Below, in pieces: positions 6,811 through 24,669 of a DNA stretch of 64,000 bases (its first letter is position 1; every line of letters starts with the position of its first letter). Source of the DNA: Goleter apudmare HA4340-LM2 (GTDB lineage Bacteria; Cyanobacteriota; Cyanobacteriia; Cyanobacteriales; Nostocaceae); assembly GCA_019359495.1 (NCBI GenBank), contig JAHHHF010000083.1:62001-126000 (forward strand), in the 5' to 3' direction. The translations under genes were made by a program, and so were the position numbers. The notes under the pieces are model-generated. The model was not told where the DNA came from. It did not search any database and saw only the letters and a list, made by a program, of their open reading frames with translations.

Positions 6811-6900
6811 ATCAAAGCTTAAATCAAAGCATCTACCATGCATAATTAAAAGTTTGTAGTAATAACTTTGGCCCTTATCAATTTTTTGTTGATTATCATC

Positions 6901-7185
6901 TATAGAACTCATATTTGATTTTTGAACAGATACGTAGTGGCGTGTCTAAGCTAATTTTGTGTATTAGCAATCTTTTGTAGTACGGGCATCTTGCCCATTT
7001 TAATTAGCGGGCAAGATGCCCGCACCACAAGAAAATTTTTTGCATCATTTTAGGCTTGTCAGTCCAGTAGGATGTGTTAGCGACAGCGTAACGCACCCCC
7101 CCAAAGCTTTCGGTGCGTTACGGCTTGCGCCTAACACACCCTACACATACTGAGATTTTTTCAGATATCAAATCGGATTCCTATA
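6901..7185. repeat. Composite MITE-like element, copy C
   Basis: The ends TATAGAACTCATATTTGATT and ATCAAATCGGATTCCTATA match copies A and B. Inside are a second-family repeat (about 6935-7068, GCGTGTCTAAGC...GGCTTGTCAGTCC) and a GTAACGCACC / GGTGCGTTAC hairpin. It fills the gap between the convergent genes ending at 6810 and 7211. Confidence 0.65.
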
Positions 7186-7210
7186 TGTTAGATTATCTGT
7201 AGTTAAGAAA

Positions 7211-10192: not shown

Positions 10193-10890
10193 AACAAATA
10201 ATATTTATTCCATCTTGAAATTAAAGAATGCAATTACAGCCAATCGGTGATCAAAACAAAACTATGAAAAGCAATCTAAAACTTATTTATTTGCTGCTTA
10301 ATTGCACTTAACTACTAAAAGCAAGTGCAAAATATCTGTTATGAATCTTTATGATCTTGCTGACACCATTCTTTAATAGGATTAAGAAAAATAGCAGACA
10401 CAGCAAAATTAGAACTTCTAAAAGGCTTGTTTGAATAGATTAATTGTTATTTCATTCAAGCTTAATCAACAATAATCTCAGCTAATCCCAACACCAGTAA
10501 TATAATTCCTGTGTGAATACAAACAAGATTTGTCAAACTTGCTTATATAGATTTTCTTTACTCTTCAGTTTGAGGTTTAACATCTTCACAGAGAATTGGT
10601 ATAAGCCAAGAAAACCGATTTCGATACTCCATCTAAAAGAAATAAAATCAAGTAATACGTATCTGCTGCAAAAAAACTTTAACCCGATGCCCAAAATTTA
10701 ACTTCGGTAAATTTCCTGAAATTCAAAAACTATACCAGTGCTTTACCGTATATACACTGAATATATATTTTTATTATGAGAAATTAAAATATTAAATTTC
10801 TATTTAATTTTGGCAAATTTTAGTATGAATTAGGTTTTGTCATTTGTCATTGCTTAAGAGTCAGGATAAGTCTATTCGCCATTCACCATT
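10193..10890. other. AT-rich intergenic region
   Basis: This is the divergent upstream region of the outer-membrane protein gene (minus) and the histidine kinase (plus). A 62-codon frame at 10513 has no ribosome-binding site or recognisable content and is not called. The 21-base motif at 10741-10761 lies 130 bases before the kinase start. Confidence 0.5.
10741..10761 (+). repeat. 21-base motif, copy 1
   Basis: CTTTACCGTATATACACTGA plus A recurs in inverse orientation at 46784-46804 with one mismatch; a 14-base part also occurs at 1060-1073. All three lie in intergenic DNA upstream of genes. It could be a binding site or a fragment of a dispersed repeat. Confidence 0.45.
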
Positions 10891-12327
10891 ATGTTTCAAG
10901 CTACTCGCCGCCGTCTCGCCATTTGGTACACTACTGTTACTGCCGTGTTACTACTACTGTTTGCCAGTGGTGTGTATTTATATGTACGTAGTACGCTGAT
11001 TGAGCGCATTGATGATACCCTTAGTCACGTAGTAGAAGTGGTAGAGCGGTGTTTAACGACTAGTCGCTGTGCATCTGGTCTGGTAATTGACCCACTCAAC
11101 AACGATTCTGATAAGTTACGGATTAATTTAGAAGCTAGTTTGCGCGATCGCTCTGACACGGTAGATGATGACCACATTGACCTAGAATGGTTCAGTCCTA
11201 CTGGTGAGTTACTTTGGTCAACTTTATCTGAACCCCTAAATATTCCTATTCACGCTAACCGGACTGGGGAAACTGTGCGTATAGTGAAACAAGACAATAG
11301 CACATGGGAAGACTCAGGACTTTTATTGCGACAAGTAACACAACGCGTAGAAGTGGGACGGCGGGTATTGGGATATCTGCGTGTTAGTCATCCCTGGTTT
11401 GAAGTGACGAAACCCAGCCATCAATTGATTTTTGATTTGGCTTTGGGGACTGGATTAATGGTGTTATCTGTAGCAGCTAGTGGTTGGTTTCTGTCTGGTA
11501 AAGCAATGGAACCAGTGGGTGAGTCTTACCAACGCCTCAAACAATTTACTGCTGATGCTTCTCATGAACTCAGAAGTCCAATTACCTTGATTCAAACTAA
11601 TGTACAAGTTGCACTTGCTGACTTGGAATCAGTAGATACAGAAGCTACTGCAAATTATCGCCAACAATTAAGGGTGATGGAACGGCTAACTCAGCGATTG
11701 GGTAAGTTAGTGAATGATTTACTGTTTTTAGCACGACAGGATAGTGGAATTAGTAAAGATAATTTTTCTTCTTGTCCACTAGATGCGTTATTGATGGAAG
11801 TGCTGGAAGAACAACAATTATTAGCGACTGAAAAAGATATTATTTTGACTTTAAATTTAGTTGATCCTCCTAGCTCAGAAATTAGCCCAGAATTGCTAGA
11901 AAATTGGTTCACATTTATGGGTAATTGGGATCAATTAGTCAGGTTATTCACAAATTTAATCAGTAATGCTTTGCAATACACACCACCAGGTGGACAGGTG
12001 AATGTGGAGTTAGCACGTCTAGACGGAGTCAATCGCATATCTGGACTGCGTTATGCTACAGCACAATTGCAAGTTAAGGTCAGTGATACGGGAATTGGTA
12101 TTCCCACGGAAGCATTACCACTGTTATTTGACCGCTTTTATCGAGTAGATCCTGCACGTACTCATAACACTAGGAATAGGGCGAGAGAAAGTAGCATTGG
12201 CTCAGGATTAGGACTAGCGATCGCTCAAGCTGTGGTTGAATATCATCAAGGTTTAATGCAAGTTGAAAGTACTCTGGGTAAAAGCACCACTTTCACCGTC
12301 ACTTTACCAGTCACAATTGAAACTTGA
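10891..12327 (+). CDS. Membrane sensor histidine kinase
   Basis: A 478-residue two-component sensor kinase. TM1 is about residues 11-33 and TM2 about 178-201, with a periplasmic sensor region of about 145 residues between them. The H-box is DASHELRSPI with the phospho-acceptor His225. The ATPase domain has an N-box (NLISNALQYTPPGG), G1 (SDTGIGIP), F-box (LFDRFYRVD) and G2 (GSGLGLAIA). It senses an unknown periplasmic signal and would phosphorylate a response regulator. No regulator gene lies beside it, so the partner is elsewhere. It resembles cyanobacterial RppB/NrsS-type kinases, but the signal cannot be read from sequence. The ATG at 10891 gives a normal N-terminus just ahead of TM1. Confidence 0.92.
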   Translation: MFQATRRRLAIWYTTVTAVLLLLFASGVYLYVRSTLIERIDDTLSHVVEVVERCLTTSRCASGLVIDPLNNDSDKLRINLEASLRDRSDTVDDDHIDLEWFSPTGELLWSTLSEPLNIPIHANRTGETVRIVKQDNSTWEDSGLLLRQVTQRVEVGRRVLGYLRVSHPWFEVTKPSHQLIFDLALGTGLMVLSVAASGWFLSGKAMEPVGESYQRLKQFTADASHELRSPITLIQTNVQVALADLESVDTEATANYRQQLRVMERLTQRLGKLVNDLLFLARQDSGISKDNFSSCPLDALLMEVLEEQQLLATEKDIILTLNLVDPPSSEISPELLENWFTFMGNWDQLVRLFTNLISNALQYTPPGGQVNVELARLDGVNRISGLRYATAQLQVKVSDTGIGIPTEALPLLFDRFYRVDPARTHNTRNRARESSIGSGLGLAIAQAVVEYHQGLMQVESTLGKSTTFTVTLPVTIET

Positions 12328-12652
12328 TTTTCTCAAAAATTACCGTTTGATTAATTTATTTGTCTCTGGCTAGAGGCTGAAAAATAAATTTGGAATTTGA
12401 TTTATTCTTCAGCCAGTGGTCAGATACGAATAAAATTTGCAATTACTAATATTTAATTATTAGACTTGTTATTTAACATTTGCACAGACGTTATTCTGTA
12501 ACAATTTTTATTATCCCTATTACTTATAGCGGTTTTCAGACGAGTGAAGTACAGTTTTAAATCGCAAAACCCGTAGGGGTTTCCCCGCCCTTGATTGTAT
12601 TGCGTTCAACCGAGAAAGGCTATATTACCCATTTACAATTTAGGAGTTAAAT
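12328..12652. other. Intergenic, no gene seen
   Basis: The stretch holds only AT-rich spacer and a short GC-rich patch (GTAGGGGTTTCCCCGCCC at about 12571-12588). AGGAG just before 12653 serves the next gene. Confidence 0.5.
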
Positions 12653-13405
12653 ATGAACAAAAAATCTCCCAATTTTCCCAAGCCTGTTGGAGTATTGAGT
12701 GCGATTTGTGGAGGCTTATTGATGAGTCTTCCACTCTTTACACAAGTAGTAAAAGCGCAACAGCTTACCCCTCAAGTTAATCCCTGTCCGCGAATATTCT
12801 ATGAGGAACCGCATAACAACAGGGTTTTAGTACCGCAGGGATGTCCTCCCAATGCTTTCACTCAACAATTGTTAAATCAAGGTCTGATCACTCCATCACC
12901 AGACCAAATTAGAATGGGCGTTGGTGGTGAAGCGCCTCCTTCTGTACTTAATCCTAATCCTCGTATTTTCCAGGAAGCACCCTACAATCGCTCCCAGCAA
13001 CCCTTAACAACTCCTAGCGCTGTACCTGTACCTCCAGTACCAAGAAGTTCTGTAATTCAACCACCCTTACCGGGACAACAACAGTCTCCCATTGCTACAG
13101 TCTTACCCACAAATAACGTCGTCAATGTCCGCTTGGTCAACGATTCAGGAGCGAATATTACTTATCAAATAATTGGGGATACTGCACCGCGATCGCTGCC
13201 AGGTAGGTCAAATACTACACTAAAAGGCTTACGGACACCAATTACCGTAACATTTTACCGTGAAGATGGTGGATTAGTGGCAGTGGCAGCCCAAAGAACT
13301 TCTCAACAAGGAACTTTGTCAGTTACTTTACGCGAAACCACGGAAGTCGGTAAAGATAGAGGTACGCTGAGAATTGCAGAAAATGGATCTGTGTTTTTGA
13401 ATTAG
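12653..13405 (+). CDS. Exported protein of unknown function
   Basis: A 250-residue protein with a signal peptide (hydrophobic stretch at about residues 12-31, cleavage after VKA near residue 35). A motif occurs twice, CPRIFYEEPHNN near the mature N-terminus and PRIFQEAPYN about 55 residues later, followed by a Pro/Gln/Ser-rich linker. The C-terminal domain of about 90 residues starts at VNVRLVNDSGANITYQIIGD and looks beta-rich. I do not recognise the family. The ATG at 12653 has a strong AGGAG six bases upstream. It is convergent with the TPR gene, with a shared hairpin between them. Confidence 0.75.
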   Translation: MNKKSPNFPKPVGVLSAICGGLLMSLPLFTQVVKAQQLTPQVNPCPRIFYEEPHNNRVLVPQGCPPNAFTQQLLNQGLITPSPDQIRMGVGGEAPPSVLNPNPRIFQEAPYNRSQQPLTTPSAVPVPPVPRSSVIQPPLPGQQQSPIATVLPTNNVVNVRLVNDSGANITYQIIGDTAPRSLPGRSNTTLKGLRTPITVTFYREDGGLVAVAAQRTSQQGTLSVTLRETTEVGKDRGTLRIAENGSVFLN

Positions 13406-13406
13406 T

Positions 13407-13430
13407 AGGGGCGAACGGTTGTTCGCCCTA
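13407..13430. terminator. Hairpin between convergent genes
   Basis: GGGCGAAC (13409-13416) pairs perfectly with GTTCGCCC (13421-13428) around GGTT. It sits between the stops at 13405 and 13458 and could end transcription from either side, although there is no long T-run. The palindrome may equally be a dispersed repeat. Confidence 0.4.
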
Positions 13431-13457
13431 GGATCATTGTGAGAGATATCTAATTTG

Positions 13458-14594
13458 TTATCGCTTCAACATCCGAGTAAGGCGATCAACTAGCAACAAT
13501 TCTCGCTTATCGTCTGATAATGTCCGCGCTAGGATAATCGCCCTTTCGTAAAAATTACGCGCAGTTGAGTAATTACCCAATTGCTCATACAAAAGAGCAT
13601 AGGACTCAAAAGATTTTAGTTCTTCGCGGGTGTTTTGTAATTCATTAGCGATCGCCAAACGCTGTTCTAGTAAATCAAAGGCTCTCTCATAACGTCCCAC
13701 AGAACTGTGTGCTGTCACTAAACCATCAATTGCTCGTAAATAATTAGTGCGATCGCGGTTCGTTTTTGCTAACCTTAATGCTGCGCCGTATGTCCCAATC
13801 GTATCTGGATAGTTACCTGCGACTAGATAAGCATCACCCAAATTGTTGAGAGTATTAGCCTCACCAATCACATCGCCAGTTTGACGCCGAAAAGATAAGG
13901 CAGTTTCATACAATTTAATTGCCTTATTGTAGTCTCCCAACCTAGCAGATACCAAACCCAAATTACTCAAAGACAGTCCTTCACCTTCAATGTTCTTCAC
14001 GTTACGAGCAATTGTCAATGCCTCCTCAACCGCTTGTCCGGCTGGGGCCGCTTCTGCTTGTTGCAGTAGTAAGCTACTAATATTATTGAGGGCAAAAATT
14101 TGAGCTTGAAAGTCTTGGGTATCACGAGCGATTGCTAAACGACGACGCAAAGCATCTTCTGATTTCTTAAAACGACCTAGCTGCACATAAGCCTTAGCCA
14201 GCAAATCATAGGTGATTCCCTGCGCTTTGAGATCACGAATACCATGATAAATCTCCAGTGCTTCTAAGCAAGAATCAACAGTTTTCTCAGGATATCCAGA
14301 ATTGTATTGCTGTTCACCAATTCGTACTAAGCTATCTGCGTGATCTCGTGATTCTCGCACTACCGAACTATGCAAAGGACGGTGGAGTTGTTCGGTGATA
14401 TCAACCGCACCAACAACAACAGGACTGAAGAGAGAACTAAAAAATAGCAGAGAAAAAGTCAAAAACTGGAATTTACGACTCTGGCGCGTGGCTAAAGTTG
14501 CTAAATTTAAAATCCCCAACCCGTGGCGTCTTGATTTCAGGGTGGGATTTAAATGCAAAATTGTCTGTCCTGGGATTATATGCTGTTGTTTCAT
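13458..14594 (-). CDS. Exported or membrane-anchored TPR protein
   Basis: A 378-residue protein with a hydrophobic segment at about residues 43-62 (FQFLTFSLLFFSSLFSPVVV) after a basic N-terminus, suggesting export or an N-terminal anchor. About seven tetratricopeptide repeats of 40-residue (Kinesin-light-chain-like) spacing follow, for example LSLSNLGLVSARLGDYNKA and NTLNNLGDAYLVAGNYPDT. It is probably a periplasmic protein-interaction scaffold; no catalytic domain is seen. The start is uncertain: the ATG at 14594 leaves a long basic leader, and a start nearer the hydrophobic segment is possible. The sigma-like gene upstream is on the same strand about 110 bases away. Confidence 0.78.
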   Translation of the reverse strand: MKQQHIIPGQTILHLNPTLKSRRHGLGILNLATLATRQSRKFQFLTFSLLFFSSLFSPVVVGAVDITEQLHRPLHSSVVRESRDHADSLVRIGEQQYNSGYPEKTVDSCLEALEIYHGIRDLKAQGITYDLLAKAYVQLGRFKKSEDALRRRLAIARDTQDFQAQIFALNNISSLLLQQAEAAPAGQAVEEALTIARNVKNIEGEGLSLSNLGLVSARLGDYNKAIKLYETALSFRRQTGDVIGEANTLNNLGDAYLVAGNYPDTIGTYGAALRLAKTNRDRTNYLRAIDGLVTAHSSVGRYERAFDLLEQRLAIANELQNTREELKSFESYALLYEQLGNYSTARNFYERAIILARTLSDDKRELLLVDRLTRMLKR

Positions 14595-14704
14595 GGAACG
14601 CAGCCGTGAAATTTCGGGATTAAGTATTAGAGTTTAATAAGAGGTTTTTAATTTTTATATTTAAACCCAGATAATACGCATTTACACTTAGGAAGTTAAT
14701 AGCA

Positions 14705-15322
14705 TTAAGCTTCACCTAAGTAGATGGTGCGGACATCTCCAGGTAATTTGTCCTCTAACATACGATATCCTTCCCGCAGAAAATTGGCTACTTCAATAGG
14801 CGTAATATTTTCTCCTTCAGCTTGCAGATAGGCAGCAATTCTAGTTTCACTCCAATGGAAAGTTTGAGCCATCAAAACCACAAAGCGCAAAACAGCCGGC
14901 AGTTGTTCTAATGCTTGTTCGACATAGCACCATAAAGGCGGTGAAGTCGTCTTTAGAGAATAATGAATAGCTTCTGTTGGTGGTAGTTTGATTTCGTTAA
15001 TGCAATAGGCTGTCATGTTAATCAGCCAATTTTGCAGAGTCAGGTTTTCCAGATCTCCTTCCACGCTGGTTAAATCCAGTCCTCCGAGTTCATAGTAAAT
15101 GTGTCGCCAAGTCAGGGCAAACAGATAATCTGCTTGCACAGGCGATCGCGCCGAGTGGCAAATCAGGGTGTAGACTATAGGGCTATAGCGGCAAAAAATC
15201 GCCGTAAAGTATTTACCTGTGTCGGGATAGCGCTGAAACAGATTCAGCAATTCCTCGTCACTTTGGTGAAACAGCGATTTAACTAAGGGGTGGTTAGCTT
15301 CGGAAAAATGAGGTATTTGCAC
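14705..15322 (-). CDS. Sigma-70-like regulator (cyanobacterial family)
   Basis: A 205-residue soluble protein. Residues of about 20-85 (EELLNLFQRYPDTGKYFTAI then FCRYSPIVYTLI) resemble region 2 of ECF-type sigma factors. Residues of about 135-190 (LEQLPAVLRFVVLMAQTFHW, then SETRIAAYLQAEG and ITPIEVANFL) resemble region 4, with a helix-turn-helix. The -10 and -35 contact residues are less conserved than in standard ECF factors, so it may be a divergent sigma factor or a sigma-like regulator. No anti-sigma gene is adjacent. Assignment rests on family resemblance only. Confidence 0.55.
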   Translation of the reverse strand: MQIPHFSEANHPLVKSLFHQSDEELLNLFQRYPDTGKYFTAIFCRYSPIVYTLICHSARSPVQADYLFALTWRHIYYELGGLDLTSVEGDLENLTLQNWLINMTAYCINEIKLPPTEAIHYSLKTTSPPLWCYVEQALEQLPAVLRFVVLMAQTFHWSETRIAAYLQAEGENITPIEVANFLREGYRMLEDKLPGDVRTIYLGEA

Positions 15323-16405: not shown

Positions 16406-16873
16406 TTACGTCTTTTCAAATATTTCTGCCAATTTCTTGATTGTTTCTGCTGCTAAATGCTGGATTTCCAGATCGTACACATCACTGGCATTCTCATAAA
16501 CTCTTATACTCATCACTCTCCCCGCCAAAAAGTTACTCAAACCATTAATTTGGTCTTCTTGAGGGAAATTCCAGTATTTTTCTAATTTAGTAGCAATTTC
16601 CGCAACATCTTTATCTGGTAGCTGTTTTCTTAACCTCACAGCTAGCCAGTCATCAGTTTGTAGAAAAGTTGTTACTAACTCTACAAAACTTCGTTGCTCC
16701 TCTTCGTCTTCCCCCCACTTTTCCAACCAATCTCCGTCTACATCTTCAAAATATAAATGAGCAGCCTCTAACCCATATTTCAGTATGTCATCCTGTAGTT
16801 TCCGAGCTGCTGCTAAATGCTGACGAAATCTCTCTAATTTTTGTAGACGGTCAGTTGGTGTGCCGTTAACCAT
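16406..16873 (-). CDS. 155-aa protein with a domain shared with the nearby antitoxin
   Basis: An acidic soluble protein of 155 residues. Residues 1-62 contain a helical stretch and the motif HLYFEDVDGDWLEKWGEDEE. Residues 65-155 match the C-terminal extension of the XRE antitoxin (21362-22075): FLQTDDWLAVRLRKQL against LLESDDLVAVKVRERL, VAEIATKLEK against IPEIAIELEK, then ED-I, N-L-G and LA-E---KLA-I. A disrupted paralog of the whole protein lies at 20973-21347. It is the last gene in the minus-strand CHAT cluster, 61 bases after the 231-aa gene. Function unknown; an adaptor or inhibitor domain is possible. The ATG at 16873 is conserved in position with the pseudogene copy. Confidence 0.72.
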   Translation of the reverse strand: MVNGTPTDRLQKLERFRQHLAAARKLQDDILKYGLEAAHLYFEDVDGDWLEKWGEDEEEQRSFVELVTTFLQTDDWLAVRLRKQLPDKDVAEIATKLEKYWNFPQEDQINGLSNFLAGRVMSIRVYENASDVYDLEIQHLAAETIKKLAEIFEKT

Positions 16874-16934
16874 AATGACTCACTTTGATAAATGATGTTG
16901 CTCTACAAACCCAATTCATGAAAGTATCCGACAA

Positions 16935-17630
16935 CTAGAGATTAAATTTTAAATAAATACCTGTGTTGAGATGATCACCGTTATATAGTGTTAAGTTCAC
17001 CATCTGAGTCATAAAATCTTTTGCACCAGGAGTGTAATTTAAAAACAATCCTCTATCTATTTGCCAAAAACGCAGAGTAACTTCCCAATTGTGAGATTTT
17101 TCTGGAGAGAATTCTTGAGAGACACTGGTAAGTTGAGTGCAAAGCGGTTTCTCTTGCCTGCTACTGATAATTATATCAGTTGCCATCGACAGGTCTGCAA
17201 CATAACGTTGTACAACTGTACCACCACGCTGCCTAATCAAATTAGCCAGAGAGTCAATTAATTTTGTGTCCTCCTGATGGAATTCTCCGGACATTAGTTT
17301 TTGTCTCCAAATATAAAATTTGGGATCATGTTCATTTAACCATTGGGGAAATAATTGAGTGTACCAATATTTTTCTGTCGGTGTCATTTCCTCATAAGCT
17401 TGCGATTCTCCTGCTTCAGCAGCCAGGCTTTTAATATCCAGCCAAGTTTCCGCATCCGTGATAATTTGTTGCAAAAATAGAATGACAAATCTTTTAGCAG
17501 TCAGGGAACCTGTTTTAACATCTTTAACCCAGCGATTTATTTCTGTTAATCTTTTCGCTAAATTAGGGTCGATAACAGACGCTTCCTCTATGAGTAATTT
17601 TAGTTTATTCTTAATTTCTTGAGCTTGCAA
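16935..17630 (-). CDS. Unknown 231-aa protein in the CHAT cluster
   Basis: A soluble 231-residue protein with no recognised domain. The N-terminal 80 residues are helical and charged (IKNKLKLLIEEASVIDPNLA). The C-terminal part contains RYVADLSMATDIIIS and a beta-like end (EVTLRFWQIDRGLFLNYTPG). No signal peptide or membrane segment. It sits between the CHAT protease gene (117 bases upstream) and the 155-aa gene, on the same strand, so the three may be co-transcribed. By position it could be a substrate or partner of the protease, but nothing in the sequence proves this. Confidence 0.65.
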   Translation of the reverse strand: MQAQEIKNKLKLLIEEASVIDPNLAKRLTEINRWVKDVKTGSLTAKRFVILFLQQIITDAETWLDIKSLAAEAGESQAYEEMTPTEKYWYTQLFPQWLNEHDPKFYIWRQKLMSGEFHQEDTKLIDSLANLIRQRGGTVVQRYVADLSMATDIIISSRQEKPLCTQLTSVSQEFSPEKSHNWEVTLRFWQIDRGLFLNYTPGAKDFMTQMVNLTLYNGDHLNTGIYLKFNL

Positions 17631-17747
17631 ACAATGATCAACCTTATGGATGGTGTGGCTTCAGGAATTAAAGATAATTTTATAGCATTATCAATACCAA
17701 ACCTGTATAAACGCAAAATTTTACGTCACTCTCCAGCAAAACACCCC

Positions 17748-20666
17748 TCATCGTAAACCTTGGCAGATAAAAGCAGACCAGTATCGCGGGTGTGAAAAGG
17801 GAAACTTTTCAGTGGAAGTTTCGGTTTGTTGAATTAATCTATTGACTCTGGCGTACATATTGTATTCACGCTCCCATTCTCGATATTCTACAGAACCACG
17901 GCTGTATTGTTTTCTACTTTGTATTAGTTGCTTTTCCCTCGCCTCTATTTCTGGAAAAATTTCTTTGCAATCCTGTTTCCTCAAGTTGCGTAAGTTCATT
18001 TGTGCTTGCTGTAAAGCTTTGGAACAGCTTTTACCTTGTTTTCTGTGTTGGTAGTAAAAGATGGATAATATAGCTGTAGCCAGATCATCTACTTTCCACA
18101 GAGTACTGACAACACTTCTTGCACCTGCACACAAAAAGCCCGTAGATAGGGTAAGAATGTCATCAGTCAGGGAAGTAGTACCTAAATTTGTCTCACAGCA
18201 GGACAGAAAAATATCCCAAAGATTAGGTAAACGCCATCCTGGCGTCATCAATTGCCCTAATGTAATATTGCCATCGCCTAATTGCAAATAAGATTCGAGT
18301 GGATTGTCAAGACGGGATGCAGCATGATGACAGCAGTGAAGTACCTGGACTTGTTCAGCTAGCTGGCGATATCTAGCTTTAGTGGCTTGATTACTACCTC
18401 TAAGCCTTTGAACGCTGGGGATTTCGTACAATTTAGCAAGCTGTTCACCTTCAAAACTGGCACAGGGTAAATCATCTGTGGCATTTTCTACAATGCCGTA
18501 TGAGCGATCGCTGCTTTCTATCTTGTCTCGTTGTTGACAAAATTCCAAGATTTGGCAGCTAGGAGTATAGCGAATGAGAAACTTATCTCCTAGATATTGA
18601 TTATTAGCAATAGGTAAAGCCGCGAAGGGAATTTGGTGCAGTACCAAATGAGGTACTAAGATTAGTTCTTCTATATCTTCTAATTTTTGGGAAATTAGTT
18701 CAGGCAGTTGCAGGCGTTGAGCTAGTTCGCTGAGAATATGATTGATTTGGCTTCCCCATGTTTTGCGATCGCCTACATACACTAATAACCAATTCTCAAA
18801 AATCCAGTTTTGCAGCGTTTTTAGTCCTTGTCCGATGCAAGTGTGGAGGGTAATTTGGTTTTGTCGCAGGATAAAGATATGGGTGTCGTTATCGGTAGTG
18901 TAGAAACTGAGGATAGCGGTATTAGGCTGGTCGATCAGCTTTTGTATGGCTGAAAAATTAGGGGCGCTAACTTGAATCTCGCCAGCTAAAACGGGATCTA
19001 AGCGTCTGAGTTGTTCCCAAACTTGCTGTTTTTCTGTTTCTAAAGATGCGATCGCTTCGTTGTAAGCTTGGAATGCAGCGCGTGTTTGACTACGATTATC
19101 GTTGGATTTTGGGCGATCGCGTTCTCGATCAATTTGCTGTTGCAGTTCTTCATACTGCTGCAATAAATCTTTGACTGCTGGGGGAATTTCGCCGCTTTGG
19201 TACAAGTCGTTACTTGCCATTAAGTCTACCAGACGTTTAGAGCGCGATCGCTCGGCATATTCAAAAGCTTTTTCTATTTCACCCGCGTTGATGCAGGCTT
19301 GTACCATCTCTTGGTAAACATCAATCGCTGCTTCGAGAATTTCTTGGCGACGAAATTCAGAAGTTGCCCAAGTACGACTGGTTTCTACTGCTTCAATAGC
19401 TAGACTATATCCTTCGATAGCTTCTAACCAAAGTTTTGCATTTGTAGCAATTTCACCTAGTTGCTTAGAAGTTGTTAAGCACTCCAAAGGAAAGGCTGTA
19501 GCTGTGAAAATTTCTAGGGCTAACCGACAACAGGCGATCGCTTTATCAAGCTTACCTAAATGTGTGTAAGCAATAGCCAGATTACTTTGATTTTTTGCCC
19601 AATATTCAGGAAGACTATTGCGGGTAAAAACTTGGAAGGCTGCTTCATAATATTTAATTGCTCTATCCAAATTTTCTGCTTTGTTACCTATTATCCTTTG
19701 GCTATAGACAATACCCAAATTTTTTTGAGCCATTGCCCAATCCATAGGAAATGTCTCTTGAGTGTAGATTTCCAAAGCTGCTTCAAAAGCTGCGATCGCT
19801 CGTTCCTGATATTTCTTATGGTAGATATACGGCGATTTTAAATATGCTATTCCCAAATTGTTTTGGGTTATAGCCCATTCTCTAGGAAGTGCCTCCTTAG
19901 TATAAACTTGCAAGGCAGCTTTATAAGCTTCAATAGCTATTGTTAAATTTTCGACTGGATTACCTCTAATTCTCTCGCGGTAGGCGTTTGCCAAATTGAT
20001 TATTGTCTGTGCCCAATCATAAGGTAACGCCTCACAGGTGCGGACTTGTAGGGCTGCTTGAAAGCAACTGATCGCCATTTCTAAATTTTCTGCGCGATCG
20101 CCATGAATTCTTTCAACAAATATAGCACCTAACGTGTTGAGACTATTAGCCCATAATGTTGGAAAAGTTTCTTTTGTATAAACTGATAAAGCTGAACTAA
20201 GATAATGTAAAGCCTTGTCCAAATTTTCTGCTTTATCACCCTTAACCCTTTTAAGGAAAGCTTCTCCCAAGTTGTGTTTTAACTTTGCCCACTCTTTAGG
20301 AAATGATTGGCGTGTGTGAATTGATAACGCAGCTTTGAAAAGGCTAATTGCCTGTTCTAAATTCTCAGCTTTATCTCCATAAATACGGTCACAGTAAGCC
20401 CTTGCTAAGTTATTTTTTATTGTTGCCCACATTTCGGGCATATCTTCGCGTTTGATTATTTTTAAAGCTTCATGACAAGCTGATATTGCTTTTTCTATAT
20501 TCTCGTGTTTATATCCATATATCCGGCTAACATACACTAGACCAAGATTACATTGCATCTCTGCCCATACAAGTTTTGTCCAAGTTCCTTTTTGATGACT
20601 TATAAATTCAGCGCAAATTTCCCATCCGCTCACAGCAATTTCTAAATTGAATGCTCTGTTACCCAA
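17748..20666 (-). CDS. TPR-CHAT caspase-like protease (main frame)
   Basis: A 972-codon frame. Residues 1 to about 440 are at least nine TPR-like repeats of about 50 residues, each with the pattern (W)A--QNNLG-AY--RI-G--AENLE-AI--(Y/F)-AAL. A coiled segment (QQYEELQQQIDRERDRPKSN) follows, then a C-terminal CHAT domain (about 620-972). Candidate catalytic residues are His781 in LHCCHHAASR and Cys824 in LSCCETN, matching the His-Cys dyad of clan CD peptidases. TPR-CHAT proteins cleave partner proteins in bacterial immunity or cell-death systems. The listed start is TTG and unlikely to be real: the frame is open upstream without a start (FSEIINYFPLGNRAFNLE) and joins the fragment at 20711-20947 by a frameshift. 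Same strand as its unknown downstream genes. Confidence 0.85.
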   Translation of the reverse strand: MGNRAFNLEIAVSGWEICAEFISHQKGTWTKLVWAEMQCNLGLVYVSRIYGYKHENIEKAISACHEALKIIKREDMPEMWATIKNNLARAYCDRIYGDKAENLEQAISLFKAALSIHTRQSFPKEWAKLKHNLGEAFLKRVKGDKAENLDKALHYLSSALSVYTKETFPTLWANSLNTLGAIFVERIHGDRAENLEMAISCFQAALQVRTCEALPYDWAQTIINLANAYRERIRGNPVENLTIAIEAYKAALQVYTKEALPREWAITQNNLGIAYLKSPYIYHKKYQERAIAAFEAALEIYTQETFPMDWAMAQKNLGIVYSQRIIGNKAENLDRAIKYYEAAFQVFTRNSLPEYWAKNQSNLAIAYTHLGKLDKAIACCRLALEIFTATAFPLECLTTSKQLGEIATNAKLWLEAIEGYSLAIEAVETSRTWATSEFRRQEILEAAIDVYQEMVQACINAGEIEKAFEYAERSRSKRLVDLMASNDLYQSGEIPPAVKDLLQQYEELQQQIDRERDRPKSNDNRSQTRAAFQAYNEAIASLETEKQQVWEQLRRLDPVLAGEIQVSAPNFSAIQKLIDQPNTAILSFYTTDNDTHIFILRQNQITLHTCIGQGLKTLQNWIFENWLLVYVGDRKTWGSQINHILSELAQRLQLPELISQKLEDIEELILVPHLVLHQIPFAALPIANNQYLGDKFLIRYTPSCQILEFCQQRDKIESSDRSYGIVENATDDLPCASFEGEQLAKLYEIPSVQRLRGSNQATKARYRQLAEQVQVLHCCHHAASRLDNPLESYLQLGDGNITLGQLMTPGWRLPNLWDIFLSCCETNLGTTSLTDDILTLSTGFLCAGARSVVSTLWKVDDLATAILSIFYYQHRKQGKSCSKALQQAQMNLRNLRKQDCKEIFPEIEAREKQLIQSRKQYSRGSVEYREWEREYNMYARVNRLIQQTETSTEKFPFSHPRYWSAFICQGLR

Positions 20667-20710
20667 TGGAAAATAGTTAATAATCTCACTAAAGCAGCAA
20701 ACTCCTCTGA

Positions 20711-20947
20711 CTAAATAAAGTGCTTTCTATCAACTTTAGACAGAGTATTTGGCAGCCATTGCTGAAAATACTTAATAAATTTATAATTTAATTTATTTAA
20801 ATTTGCTTTTAAAAATGGGTATACCAACTCAGGTCTACGAATGTTTTTATAGCTTGCTTGTGATGCTTCTTTGAGAAAAAAATAAAATTCAGTGTTGCGA
20901 TTTTGTTGAAATTGTTCTTTTTTGGAATTACCGAAACCTTTTCCCAT
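20711..20947 (-). CDS. Frameshifted N-terminal piece of the TPR-CHAT gene
   Basis: A 78-codon frame starting at an ATG (20947) and ending TLSKVDRKHFI, stop. From memory of cyanobacterial TPR-CHAT proteins, the segment PELVYPFLKANLNKLNYKFI followed by FQQWLPNTL resembles their N-terminal region, which continues with a ...NFS..I..FPLGN(R/K)..NLE segment. Exactly such a segment (FSEIINYFPLGNRAFNLE) lies immediately downstream in another frame, without a stop back to about 20712. One inserted or deleted base near 20705-20715 would join them into one protein of about 1065 residues. It could also be a real small gene, or a sequencing error may be involved. Confidence 0.6.
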   Translation of the reverse strand: MGKGFGNSKKEQFQQNRNTEFYFFLKEASQASYKNIRRPELVYPFLKANLNKLNYKFIKYFQQWLPNTLSKVDRKHFI

Positions 20948-20972
20948 ATTGATTCAGCTAATATCTATTTAG

Positions 20973-21347
20973 GCTCACGGAAACATCATTTTGCAAAAAA
21001 TTAGTCACTAATTATAGAAGAATTTGCTGCCTATATTCGTCTTCTCCCCATGTTTCTAGCCAATCTCCATCAATATCATCACAATATAAATGTGTGGCTG
21101 CAAGCCGATACTTAATGATGTAATCCTGTAATTTTTGAGCAGCTTCTACAGCTTGTAAAAAGTTGTCGGGAGCATCCCAAATGTGTAAATTTATTTTTTA
21201 GTGCGGGCTTTGTAGTGCGGGCTTCTAGCCCGCTTCCTTTGCATTAGGGAGCAAGATGCTCCCACTACAAATTTTATTTTTGCAAAATTGGGATGCTCCC
21301 AAGTTGTCTAATCTCTGTTGATGCTCAGATTGTTTTTCCTGAACCAT
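20973..21347 (-). pseudogene. Paralog of the 155-aa gene, destroyed by MITE insertion, nonsense codon and truncation
   Basis: It starts at the ATG at 21347 (MVQEKQSEHQQRLDN), is interrupted by a 134-bp element, and resumes as FLQAVEAAQKLQDYIIKY, then LAATHLYCDDIDGDWLETWG. With the element and one 7-base target copy removed, the two parts join in frame and align without gaps to the first 60 residues of the 155-aa protein at 16406-16873. Further on, TAA (21014-21012) replaces a Glu codon; the frame then still reads LVTNFLQND before similarity ends near 20973, so the C-terminal domain is lost. The upstream bases AAAGTGAGT before the ATG are also shared with the intact copy. Confidence 0.85.
21168..21301. 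mobile_element. 134-bp MITE with terminal inverted repeats and a 7-bp target duplication
   Basis: The ends GGGAGCATCCCA (21168-21179) and TGGGATGCTCCC (21289-21300) are perfect inverted repeats. The element is flanked by direct copies of AGTTGTC (21161-21167 and 21302-21308). The core consists of GCGGGCTTCTAGCCCGC and GGGAGCAAGATGCTCCC palindromes. The same core occurs at about 3730-3850. There is no transposase, so mobilisation must be in trans. Its insertion point inside a coding frame is exactly defined by the 16406 paralog. Confidence 0.85.
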
Positions 21348-21361
21348 AAGAACTCACTTTG

Positions 21362-22075
21362 TCATCCTAAAATATCTGCCAACTTCTCTAGCAATTCCTC
21401 AGCTAAATCCAATAACTCAATTTCATCAATTTCATTACTGGTTCCGCGATTACTTTCTCCCACTACTAAACTACCTGTTAATACATTTTTTACAGCAAAA
21501 ATCCGGTCTTCTTCTTCAAATAAACTTAAACATTTTTCCAACTCTATAGCAATTTCTGGAATTGTCTTTGTATTTAAACGCTCTCTTACTTTCACAGCTA
21601 CCAAATCATCACTTTCCAGTAGTTTTACTAAAGCTGTTCTCACTCCATTATCTTGGCTAGCAAACTTATCAATCGCTGCACGAACATATTCCCGCACACT
21701 CATGTTTGCCGCTAATGCCTTTTGTGCAACTACATCTGGTACATCTACAAGCAGTACACCATCGTTATCGCTAGCTTGATATAAGTCATCACCTTGTTTG
21801 ATGACTACGAGTAAATCTGCACCCAATGTATGTAAATAGTGCAACACTGATTCCAATTCATGATCCTTTAAAGCTGATTCCAACTTGGACACTGCGGCTT
21901 GTTGCACGCCCAGTTTTTCCGCTAACTGCGCTTGAGTTAATCCGGCTTTGTTGCGTATTTCCCGCATGGCATCAGTAAGATAAAGACGCAGATACTCTAG
22001 CTTTCCTGCCAAAATCACCTCTGGATCTTCGCTGACTTTCTGCTGTAACCAAGCTTGAAAATTAGGCTTTTTCAT
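21362..22075 (-). CDS. XRE-family antitoxin with a 90-residue C-terminal extension (HigA-like)
   Basis: A 237-residue protein from the ATG at 22075, which has AGAGG four bases upstream. The listed GTG at 22096 adds seven residues without support. Residues of about 33-92 are an XRE helix-turn-helix (EIRNKAGLTQAQLAEKLGVQ then QAAVSKLE), as in HigA antitoxins that bind DNA and neutralise a RelE-fold toxin. Residues 100-145 are a linker with a possible small domain (SVREYVRAAIDKF). Residues 148-237 repeat the domain of the 155-aa protein at 16406. The start lies inside the last 14 bases of the toxin gene, so the pair is translationally coupled, toxin first. Usual HigA proteins are about 100 residues, so the extension is unusual. 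Confidence 0.82.
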   Translation of the reverse strand: MKKPNFQAWLQQKVSEDPEVILAGKLEYLRLYLTDAMREIRNKAGLTQAQLAEKLGVQQAAVSKLESALKDHELESVLHYLHTLGADLLVVIKQGDDLYQASDNDGVLLVDVPDVVAQKALAANMSVREYVRAAIDKFASQDNGVRTALVKLLESDDLVAVKVRERLNTKTIPEIAIELEKCLSLFEEEDRIFAVKNVLTGSLVVGESNRGTSNEIDEIELLDLAEELLEKLADILG

Positions 22076-22475
22076 GATTCCTCTGCTGCAATTCACGCAA
22101 TCTCACTCTTGCAGGTTCTTTGTCTCTCTCTTTGATAGCGTCGTTGTATTTCTTCATAAAGGCGTACAGCACCACAAACCTTTGAGGAGTGACAGCCGTT
22201 AAGATAAACCGTGGATTATGTTCGCTCTTAGTCATCCGTAACTCATACAGGCCATCTTCCAACTTCTCAAAGATGCCGCTTGTAAGTGATGCGAGTCCTT
22301 TGTTGCACAGGTAGCCTAGGTTAACTTGCAAACGCCTGGTTTCGGAAGCACTCAATAATGGCTTTGGTGGATTTTCTGGTTGTTCCTCTTTGGGAATCAT
22401 CCTCATGAAAAAAGCAAGTAAATCTTTGGGTATTTTCTCATTGACATCTTGATAAAGTTCCCAAGTCCAGGCCAC
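22062..22475 (-). CDS. HigB/RelE-fold toxin of a type II toxin-antitoxin pair
   Basis: A 137-residue basic soluble protein. The C-terminal half has the signature of the HigB/Gp49-type family: LEDGLYELRMTKSEHNPRFI, then RFVVLYAFMKKYNDAIKERD, ending in an Arg-rich helix. Toxins of this fold usually cleave mRNA on the ribosome; that is family knowledge, not shown here. The GTG at 22475 is the only plausible start. The gene overlaps the antitoxin by 14 bases, in the toxin-first order typical of higBA. Two identical palindromes lie 21-64 bases upstream and probably mediate autorepression. The N-terminal 70 residues (KIPKDLLAFFMRMIPKEEQP) extend beyond the minimal toxin. Confidence 0.8.
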   Translation of the reverse strand: MAWTWELYQDVNEKIPKDLLAFFMRMIPKEEQPENPPKPLLSASETRRLQVNLGYLCNKGLASLTSGIFEKLEDGLYELRMTKSEHNPRFILTAVTPQRFVVLYAFMKKYNDAIKERDKEPARVRLRELQQRNHEKA

Positions 22476-22495
22476 TTCCTACCTCACAATATATT

Positions 22496-22539
22496 ATTCC
22501 TTATAAGGAATGTCAAGCGTATTATTCCTTATAAGGAAT
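22496..22539 (-). promoter_or_regulatory. Twin palindromic operator upstream of the toxin-antitoxin operon
   Basis: The perfect 16-base palindrome ATTCCTTATAAGGAAT occurs at 22496-22511 and again at 22524-22539, 28 bases apart (close to an integral number of helical turns). The nearest edge is 21 bases from the toxin start. Such paired sites upstream of a toxin-antitoxin operon are typical antitoxin-dimer operators and probably overlap the promoter. Confidence 0.8.
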
Positions 22540-22623
22540 ATCATATTGAATAAGTGAGAGCAAGTAAGATAATAAAAGGTAGAGTGATAAAAATGGTGCG
22601 TTAGGCAAAGCCATAACGCACCC

Positions 22624-22757
22624 TACTGGCGTGTCTAAGCTAATTTTGTGTATTAGCAATCTTTTGTAGTACGGGCATCTTGCCCGTTCTAATTAGCGGG
22701 CAAGATGCCCGCACCACAAGAAAATTTTTTGCATCATTTTAGGCTTGTCAGTCCACT
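22624..22757. repeat. MITE-like repeat, family TGGCGTGTCTAAGC
   Basis: Nearly identical to the inner element of 6935-7068: it starts TACTGGCGTGTCTAAGCTAA, has the palindromic core GCGGGCAAGATGCCCGC, and ends GGCTTGTCAGTCCACTA. Just left is an AACGCACCCTA repeat. It fills the space between the toxin operon and the 3' end of lysS. Confidence 0.65.
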
Positions 22758-22780: not shown

Positions 22781-24466
22781 TCAACTCAATTGTTCATACT
22801 TAAATTTCCCTTTAATAAACTTGTTAAAATATTGACCTTTAGACGGTGCATTGTCTAAGTCTTCCTTGACACTAGGAGGTACTTTGAAATACTCGTAAAC
22901 ACTTCCACTATCAAATTCAATAGTCAGTGTTTGAGTTTTTGGATCGTAGCTAAATTCCTTAATAACACTGCCTTCAGGTTTGAGGAGGGGGAAAGCGATC
23001 GCATCCCGAATACTGGCACAATCTGTTAATAACATCACCAAGCGATCAATCCCAATCCCTAAACCACCAGTGGGCGGCATACCATATTCTAGGGCTGTCA
23101 AAAAGTCTTCGTCTACGCCTTGGGCTTCCAAATCACCGGCGGCTTTTTTGGCAGCTTGGGCTTCTAAACGTTGTCTTTGATCAATCGGATCGGTAAGTTC
23201 TGAGAAGCTATTAGCAGTTTCTCGCCCCACGATAAATAACTCAAATCGTTCTACCAAACCAGGTTTAGAACGATGCGGTTTTGCTAAAGGTGAAATTTCT
23301 ACAGGATAATCAATCACAAAGGTAGGTTGAATTAATGTAGTTTCTACCTTTTCTTCAAAAGCCAAATTGAGTAGCTTACCTATAGATTGGGCTGCATCTA
23401 CACCAGGAATCCCCGCATTTTTACTTGCTATTTTTGCCTCCTCCAAGGTTGAAAAAGAATTGAAATCCAAGCCTGTAGATTCTTTCACTAAATCGTGCAT
23501 TGTCACCCGTCGCCAAGGGGGTGTTAAATCTACAGTTTGCCCTTGATAGGTAATTTCTAGTGTGTCGAGTACTTCTTGGGCGACAGTGGTAATAATCCCT
23601 TCTGTCAGCGCCATCATATCGTTGTAGTCGGCGTAGGCTTGGTAAACTTCAATCGAGGTAAATTCAGGATTATGGCGGGTGGAAACTCCTTCATTACGGA
23701 AAATCCGCCCTAATTCAAACACCTTTTCAAAACCACCGACAATCAACCGCTTGAGATGGAGTTCTGTGGCAATTCGCAGATACAACTCCATTTCTAAGGT
23801 GTTGTGGTAAGTGACAAATGGACGTGCATCTGCACCGCCTGCTTCACTCTGCAAAACTGGCGTTTCAATTTCCAGAAAATCCCGTTGTTCCAAATAGCGA
23901 CGAATACCCGCCGTAATTTGAGCACGACGGCGGAAGTTTTGGCGCACTTCCGGGTTGACAATCAAGTCAACGTAGCGCTGACGGTAGCGCTTGGCGACAT
24001 CCGTCAACCCATGCCATTTGTCTGGTAGGGGCAGCAGAGATTTAGTCAGAATAGTATATTGTTTGACGTAAACTGATAATTCGCCCTTTTCAGTCCGTTT
24101 AATCGTCCCTTTGACCCCTAATATATCGCCTGCATCAGTGAGTTGCTTAATATGGTTGAAGGCTTCAGCATCAATATCTGCCATGCCTTCCTGGATGCGA
24201 TTTTTCTCTAAATAAATCTGAATTGTGCCTGTTTCATCTTGCAAAGTGAAGAAAGCCAGTTTACCAAAGACGCGGCGCGCCATAATGCGTCCGGCGATCG
24301 CAACTTCTAATTCAACTTCTTCGCCACTGGGTAAATCAGCAAATTTTTCTTGTAGTTGTGCTGCTTGATGGGTAGATTCCCAACGATAGGCATATGGATT
24401 AAAACCTAGCTGTTTGATTTGTTCTACTTTTTCCAGCCTAGCGGCACGGATATCTTCTTCCGCCAT
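22781..24466 (-). CDS. lysS: Lysyl-tRNA synthetase, class II, with C-terminal KTSC domain
   Basis: The enzyme charges tRNA-Lys with lysine in the cytoplasm. From the ATG at 24466 it has 561 residues. The OB-fold anticodon-binding domain (about 50-155) contains [20 protein letters not shown]. The class II core follows, with motif 2 [20 protein letters not shown] and motif 3 [12 protein letters not shown]. Typical bacterial LysRS stops soon after motif 3, at about 500 residues. Here a further 60-residue module starts at [20 protein letters not shown] and includes [11 protein letters not shown] with the conserved Y-x-Y (YEY), the KTSC domain known at the C-terminus of some lysyl-tRNA synthetases and suspected to bind RNA. 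The GTG two codons upstream of the ATG is less likely. Monocistronic. Confidence 0.96.
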
Positions 24467-24669
24467 GATCACGAACTAAAGAGGGCAAGATTAATTATAG
24501 ATGCTGCGCTCCAATCGGGTGATTAACTGCAATCTTGTCAAAAAAATTAATGTAGATGCGATCGCCAAAGAATTTATTTTGAGATCAGGGTATAAAATTT
24601 TCTGGGACAAAGCCTGTCATCATTAAAGCGATCGCTTCTACTCAAAATTTCGCAGTACCATTGAACCTT

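Follow-up and report, generated by a model that had tools for sequence, protein, structure and literature searches.

What connects a toxin-antitoxin (TA) pair with a caspase-like protease? In the 64,000-nt stretch of Goleter apudmare HA4340-LM2 analyzed here (contig JAHHHF010000083.1, positions 62,001 to 126,000; hereafter, the window), a HigB-type toxin gene and the gene of its XRE antitoxin are followed on the same strand by a TPR-CHAT protease gene and by genes for a 231-AA protein (u231) and a 155-AA protein. The C-terminal half of the latter, here called 155C, recurs at the C-terminal end of the antitoxin. The trigger of type II TA systems is a long-standing open question, and with one antitoxin family, a defined domain and a candidate cut site, the triggering of a toxin by a dedicated caspase-like protease is now directly testable.

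Our results suggest a modular system, composed of an effector (X), a partner ending in 155C (Y) and a TPR-CHAT caspase-like protease, of which the window holds a decayed copy. We infer, with a probability of about one half, that the TPR-CHAT protein binds 155C as its recognition domain, cuts Y after an arginine in a loop of this domain and so frees X. For comparisons we used 193 Nostocaceae genomes (family sample) and 386 cyanobacterial genomes (phylum sample), over which a profile made from the 155C alignment was run. Some of the neighborhood counts given below were tallied by hand from the coordinates.

The antitoxin extension is shared with a stand-alone protein

In the whole-genome search, the last ~95 AA of the window antitoxin aligned at E 4.7e-9 with the C-terminal half of the 155-AA protein, and the 155C alignment revealed invariant columns common to both. 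When the 6.7-Mb genome was searched with the 155-AA protein, 155C was found at three places only, all of them in the window: the 155-AA gene itself, a broken paralog of it and the C-terminus of the antitoxin. A first-pass annotation had already named the XRE antitoxin with its extension, the broken paralog, the u231 and 155-AA genes, the HigB-like toxin and twin palindromic operators, and each of these was found again in our analysis, the u231 and 155-AA genes intact and on the minus strand.

The toxin and antitoxin genes overlap by 8 nt (22062-22069), and the matches of their products to PF05973 and HTH_3 are both above cutoff. This toxin-first, overlapping Gp49/XRE arrangement is kept in relatives, and the toxin shows a median identity of 89% to the window copy in 32 of them. 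The −35 and −10 boxes of the toxin promoter have the proximal palindrome exactly between them, and the distal one is found ~29 bp upstream, a layout conserved 5′ of the toxin in ~33 relatives. As in HigBA-type systems, the palindromes are predicted to be the autoregulatory operator of the toxin promoter.

The annotated TPR-CHAT protease held up in part. The protein has TPR repeats ahead of its CHAT domain (PF12770), and its catalytic His and Cys motifs are preserved, as in all 36 aligned sequences that span them. The window gene, however, is 5′-truncated: a frameshift near its start splits it and leaves the N-terminus in another frame, in a 78-AA open reading frame (ORF), while the TPR-CHAT genes of L212, L078 and L097 read across the same junction uninterrupted. 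The 972-AA ORF is probably an inactive copy despite its His and Cys motifs. Because the protease gene is frameshifted and the 155 paralog broken, the window appears to hold a partly decayed copy of the cluster, with the TA pair, u231 and the 155-AA gene intact. The frameshift in the protease gene also means that the TA pair probably works now as an ordinary autoregulated pair.

Antitoxin-155C genes lie beside TPR-CHAT genes

Full-length antitoxin-155C was found in 30 of the 193 Nostocaceae genomes. A toxin gene is located upstream in 30/30, and a TPR-CHAT gene, its remains or a contig end follows directly downstream in 30/30. The TPR-CHAT genes at these loci are mostly intact; broken copies, remains or contig ends were seen in L219, L221, L226, L227, L231, L293 and the window. 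None of the five closest XRE relatives without 155C (L294-L298) has a CHAT gene nearby, and two of the five adjoin a Gp49-like toxin gene.

The same link was seen from the side of the protease. All 38 CHAT loci with at least ~60% identity in the 193 genomes lie beside antitoxin-155C (25 loci) and/or the u231-155 pair (13 with the pair only), and none lies beside neither. A link between protease and antitoxin through 155C is therefore strongly supported genetically. The first-pass annotation had suggested a common partner joining antitoxin and protease. This part stood in the genomic tests (30/30, 0/5 and 38/38) and gained DUF1822 and another module as further carriers of the domain, whereas the fixed single cassette in which it had been framed did not stand. 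Co-occurrence of 155C with TPR-CHAT and XRE antitoxin genes in other cyanobacteria was searched for and found.

As a side observation, the 120-127-AA XRE genes without 155C in G088, G057, G049 and G115 (L294-L297), the two that adjoin a Gp49-like toxin gene among them, are located in a common gene neighborhood.

155C is carried by several unrelated N-terminal modules

In the next CHAT subfamily (55-61% identity, ~1600 AA), a DUF1822 protein is encoded directly upstream of the protease in 10/10 readable loci. These DUF1822 proteins end in 155C (C-terminal ~95 residues, E 1e-10 to 1e-18), their Pfam DUF1822 match spans only the first half of that profile, and a regulator-like protein is encoded upstream of them. 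For CHATs of 41-50% identity (L245-L248), no 155C neighbor was found.

Phylum-wide, 8/8 fetched loci with a 155C that is neither stand-alone nor part of an antitoxin lie by a TPR-CHAT gene, TPR remains, a CHAT gene 4 kb off or a contig end. In L287 the distance to the CHAT gene is 4 kb. The TPR-CHAT gene of L288 is split by an insertion, that of L284 is reduced to its N-terminal part, and L290 is at a contig edge. All eight fusions are DUF1822-155C except the one in L289 (7989-8959, minus strand). There, a 127-AA gene overlaps (ATGA) a 196-AA gene that encodes an unrelated N-terminus and a 155C end, and TPR-CHAT follows. This is a fourth architecture, and it looks like a further effector/inhibitor pair, one that matches no family. 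The 127-AA gene gave a single weak plasmid match, to a hypothetical protein.

Because several unrelated Y modules carry 155C directly before TPR-CHAT, the recurring order is X - Y(155C) - TPR-CHAT, in which X and Y are variable and 155C and CHAT constant. The link of fused 155C to CHAT is exclusive.

A short HNH-endonuclease gene (PF14279/PF01844 in L285) is also present just 5′ of the regulator-like/DUF1822-155C/TPR-CHAT operon in several loci (L235, 3729-4805; L285, 8750-9775; L237, 11645-12727).

Proposed protease switch

How might such an order of genes work? In the switch that we propose, the variable N-terminal part of Y would bind and restrain X. The X/Y pairs would be the Gp49/HigB toxin with the XRE antitoxin, the regulator-like protein with DUF1822 in relatives, and u231 with the 'DGDW' module of the 155-AA protein. 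The constant 155C would serve as docking and cleavage domain for TPR-CHAT. A trigger, either phage or other stress, would be sensed by the hypervariable TPR region, and CHAT would then cut Y, probably after the conserved loop Arg between the last two 155C helices. Once set free, X would cleave mRNA and arrest growth, bring about a response in transcription or exert the activity of u231.

Two sets of sequence data bear on the docking and cleavage steps. The AlphaFold2 (AF2) model of the 155-AA protein is all helical, with a low-confidence loop at ~residues 118-129 ahead of the last helix, and the loop Arg ([N/T/Y/S]R[G/D/E]) falls in this stretch of 155C. In substrates of several clan CD proteases, the P1 position is usually taken by Arg. 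Among CHAT-linked copies, the loop Arg is present in 34/34 antitoxins, in 16/17 fusions of the DUF1822 type or another type and in 29/31 stand-alone copies with a CHAT neighbor, that is, in 79/82 of the fused or CHAT-adjacent 155C copies. Where CHAT is missing, it was found in 4/13 copies at the site near lysS and in 0/32 copies at a site beside acs.

The second set concerns divergence in 24 TA-CHAT loci. Mean pairwise distances were 0.11 for the toxin, 0.08 for the XRE part, 0.23 for 155C and 0.24 for CHAT, and the TPR region is hypervariable, with a median identity to the window of 40% vs. 89-92% for toxin and XRE. The Mantel correlation of the antitoxin 155C with CHAT was r 0.74 (partial on lysS distance 0.73, p 0.0005); values vs. 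CHAT were lower for the XRE part (0.60) and the toxin (0.24).

A number of observations weigh against the switch or against parts of it. The ordering of the Mantel values is the same as that given by physical distance along the operon, so the co-divergence is suggestive only. The loop Arg is also carried by 16 of the 20 remaining stand-alone 155 copies without CHAT, and the window's own 155-AA protein is without it. In the 155C tree, which rests on only ~100 columns, the acs-site copies form one clade, so that the Arg pattern is confounded by ancestry; it is a correlation, and the loop Arg a candidate cut site. By a tally from coordinates, ~27 of the 30 TA-CHAT loci share a single inherited site, flanked by lysS and an unrelated gene; they do not represent 30 independent events but mostly one vertical lineage with losses. 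The clearest separate case is from another family, in Okeania (L118), where u231-155, toxin, antitoxin-155C and TPR-CHAT are present together at a different site. The 155C of its antitoxin groups with a Hydrocoleum 155 protein and not with the Nostoc antitoxins (96/86, 155C tree), which indicates a second fusion or gene conversion. The inhibitor role given to DUF1822 or the 155 protein is drawn by analogy. Finally, in an independent scan of named genomes, 58 of 79 u231-155 loci are without a neighboring CHAT of this clade; the 155 protein must therefore have a role independent of a CHAT neighbor, or use a CHAT in trans.

The linkage could also be read without any cutting of Y. 155C would then be an uncut adaptor that, like the effector-associated domains (EADs) of Kaur et al., docks varied proteins on a TPR-CHAT complex, with other substrates for CHAT, and the antitoxin would merely be tethered or stabilized there, in a protease version of chaperone addiction. 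The exclusive CHAT linkage and the several unrelated N-terminal modules fit such an adaptor too. In toxin-antitoxin-chaperone (TAC) systems, the product of a third gene is bound by a C-terminal extension of the antitoxin (PMC5105189, PMC6377645), and the EAD principle covers small helical domains common to multicellular-bacterial proteins, with extracytoplasmic function (ECF) sigma and DUF1822 genes located by caspases (PMC8195603). However, the CHAT protein is itself without 155C, which leaves no homotypic contact, and an Arg conserved within the predicted flexible loop of the CHAT-linked copies would better suit a substrate. We consider an uncut adaptor less likely and prefer the proposed cleavage of Y by CHAT.

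u231 and the 155-AA protein form a separate unit

The first-pass annotation had placed all genes of the locus in one candidate cassette, and this had to be given up. The 155-AA protein is encoded in 167 and u231 in 166 of the 193 Nostocaceae genomes, and the listed absences differ by one genome each. In the independent scan, u231 was immediately upstream of the 155 gene in 75/79 loci. These pairs are mostly solitary. One conserved site, next to acs, holds solitary pairs: none of the 33 loci there has CHAT or TA genes. At the lysS site 17 are solo and others are accompanied by CHAT and/or TA. As most copies are solitary, u231-155 is a near-core Nostocaceae pair with a function of its own, found mostly without CHAT or TA. 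By hand tally, u231-155 and TA-CHAT occur together at lysS in ~10 genomes vs. 8.5 expected if independent. One fixed six-gene cassette is ruled out, since u231-155 is mostly solitary and the two units are not co-enriched at lysS.

The AF2 model of u231 has a predicted local distance difference test (pLDDT) value of 92, and its top Foldseek matches were BsaWI, VRR_NUC, EcoO109I and BamHI, with E-values of at least 0.07. On these weak matches, mostly to proteins of the PD-(D/E)XK nuclease fold, we tentatively predict a restriction-endonuclease-like fold. An alignment of u231 sequences gave an invariant D152, Q166-x-T168 where E-x-K is expected, and an invariant K178 in the next helix; the canonical D...(D/E)xK motif was not found in it. 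A gasdermin-like u231 was ruled out, because the model matches mostly proteins of the restriction-endonuclease fold. Pfam, NCBIfam, PADLOC and PHROGs gave no match above cutoff for the 155-AA or the 231-AA protein, and no relative of either was found by sequence in PDB, with one marginal u231 match to a designed protein (E 0.013). A structure search with the moderate-confidence AF2 model of the 155-AA protein gave no fold match.

Could 155C then be mainly a u231-binding domain, gained by antitoxin and DUF1822 for u231 (in cis or in trans), with CHAT brought in by operon shuffling? The adjacency of u231 and 155, their near-identical phyletic patterns and the fact that nearly every antitoxin-155C genome encodes u231 somewhere fit this possibility. 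Yet in four genomes (G303, G425, G292 and G048) CHAT-linked 155C fusions were present and u231 was not detected, by which '155C means u231' is ruled out as the whole story. Moreover, fused 155C at TA-CHAT loci is often without an adjacent u231 but without a trace of CHAT only at contig ends. We regard u231 binding as an improbable main role of the domain.

Still less credible is the absence of any functional link, with a permissive site near lysS collecting TA, CHAT and u231-155 and the common domain a relic of duplication or recombination: most instances are indeed at one site, u231-155 and TA-CHAT co-occur there at a roughly independent rate, direct repeats of u231-155 around CHAT in L034 could mediate shuffling and the window copy is decaying, but 155C-CHAT adjacency recurs at other sites and in other orders, families and N-terminal modules (L118, L148, L234-L244, L285-L291), and distant CHATs are without 155C.

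In L034 (G028, 6832-14503 region) and L036, two u231-155 pairs flank TPR-CHAT as direct repeats. Such repeats, or the copies of 155C, could recombine and thereby remove or exchange the protease gene; the remnants in L226, L227 and L293 may be compared in this respect.

Comparison with known systems

Csx29, a TPR-CHAT protein, recognizes Csx30 via the C-terminal domain of the latter alone and cuts a flexible loop there, and the N-terminal part of Csx30 binds and inhibits a sigma factor (PMC10028731). By analogy, the proposed switch resembles this Craspase (type III-E CASP; Cas7-11, Csx29, Csx30 and CASP-sigma) in that a TPR-CHAT protease would act on a two-part partner with a restraining N-terminus and a C-terminus read by the protease, and the DUF1822 branch has a regulator-like effector as well. 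Unlike in Craspase, one C-terminal domain is common here to several partner types, and the partner and effector families differ. Membership in Craspase is ruled out by the score of the window TPR-CHAT protein with the Csx29 model NF041237, which was 82.7 bits vs. a cutoff of 300. No Cas7-11 or CRISPR turned up in passing among the neighbor genes, and no array search was made.

HetF is a CHAT-type protease. In Anabaena, PatU3, a negative regulator, can be cut by the protease activity of HetF (PMC12288457), so that a cyanobacterial protease cutting a negative regulator is found there as well, though in cell division and heterocyst development and with neither a TA pair nor 155C. With TAC systems of the HigBA-SecB type, where a third component recognizes the C-terminal extension of the antitoxin (PMC5105189, PMC6377645), the locus has in common a HigB/HigA-type pair, the antitoxin extension and a linked third gene, whose product may by analogy bind the extension. 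Here the third gene encodes a caspase-like protease and not SecB, and the extension has a free-standing homolog. No SecB match was found among the scanned window proteins; the neighbors are 155, u231 and TPR-CHAT. Ordinary HigBA (Gp49/XRE) pairs are likewise toxin-first and overlapping, with an XRE antitoxin and operator palindromes inside the promoter; they differ from the present locus in the ~95-AA extra domain and the constant TPR-CHAT neighbor.

Parts of the DUF1822 branch are already known. Beside caspases, Kaur et al. found genes for ECF sigma factors and DUF1822 proteins, and they put forward the idea of common small helical domains (PMC8195603). The EACC2/EAD systems of that work are alike in the caspase-like protease, the ECF sigma and DUF1822 genes nearby and the shared helical domains; 155C, TA partners and the u231-155 pair are absent from the available portion of the description. 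EACC2-type systems are characterized by an alpha+beta EACC2 domain N-terminal to the caspase, whereas in the window protein it is TPR repeats that come ahead of CHAT. In literature searches on CHAT with antitoxins or cyanobacteria, on DUF1822 and on TPR-CHAT (subscription papers and preprints being outside their scope), precedents from CRISPR and EACC2 systems came up, and neither 155C nor its CHAT linkage was described.

More tentatively than the switch itself, we suggest that 155C is a portable C-terminal degradation domain, cut at the loop Arg, that wires one TPR-CHAT family to interchangeable effector-inhibitor pairs, namely HigB toxin/XRE antitoxin, regulator/DUF1822, u231/155 and the 127-AA/196-AA pair. 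These would make up a new, CRISPR-independent class of modular cyanobacterial systems, protease-triggered TA systems that act in stress or anti-phage responses. If so, TA modules, Craspase-like switches and the CHAT/DUF1822 operons of filamentous cyanobacteria would follow one plan, with a constant protease and tag and exchangeable effector-inhibitor pairs. CHAT proteases, of which there are many per genome here, would gain a function, and 155C, matched by none of the libraries scanned, would gain a name.

Features of the window locus and its surroundings

The features of the locus are listed in Table 1.

Table 1. Coordinates of the TA, TPR-CHAT and u231-155 genes and of the promoter elements in the window
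Feature	Position	Strand	Basis
Distal palindromic operator TATTCCTTATAAGGAATA	22523-22540	−	Sequence; palindrome or near-palindrome equally spaced 5′ of toxin in ~33 loci
Proximal palindromic operator ATTCCTTATAAGGAAT	22496-22511	−	Sequence; conserved in relatives
Promoter boxes flanking the proximal palindrome, TTGACA and TATATT	22511-22516 and 22488-22493	−	Sequence
HigB/Gp49-family toxin, 137 AA (module X)	22062-22475	−	Pfam PF05973, E 8e-8
XRE antitoxin with C-terminal 155C (module Y+155C), 235 AA from ATG	21362-22069	−	HTH_3, E 9e-9
155C domain of the antitoxin, with loop Arg (GESNRGTS)	21362-21658	−	155C alignment
Broken paralog of the 155-AA gene (stop codon, inserted repeat)	~20976-21345	−	Whole-genome match, interrupted by a stop codon
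78-AA ORF with the TPR-CHAT N-terminus, frameshifted off	20711-20947	−	Homology to uninterrupted N-termini in L212, L078 and L097
Remainder of the TPR-CHAT protease gene, 972 codons	17748-20666	−	PF12770, E 2e-41, and TPRs
u231, 231-AA protein, predicted restriction-endonuclease-like fold	16935-17630	−	AF2, pLDDT 92; Foldseek, weak E-values
Stand-alone 155-AA partner of u231, with 155C as its C-terminal half	16406-16873	−	Sequence; all-helical model

Short inverted repeats of the agcgggcaagatgcccgc type are located at ~21200-21300 and ~22650-22720, and one copy interrupts the broken 155 paralog. The LysS protein of the window (22781-24472, minus strand) carries a fused KTSC domain at its C-terminus (PF13619, E 2e-23). 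About 50 of the 146 Nostocaceae lysS matches cover the full 563 residues, and the rest stop near residue 503. On the other side, past an unrelated 198-AA gene, positions 13458-15322 encode a TPR protein and a 205-AA protein that weakly resembles sigma70 region 4 (E 5e-4, below cutoff); the two are kept at this place in 24 loci.

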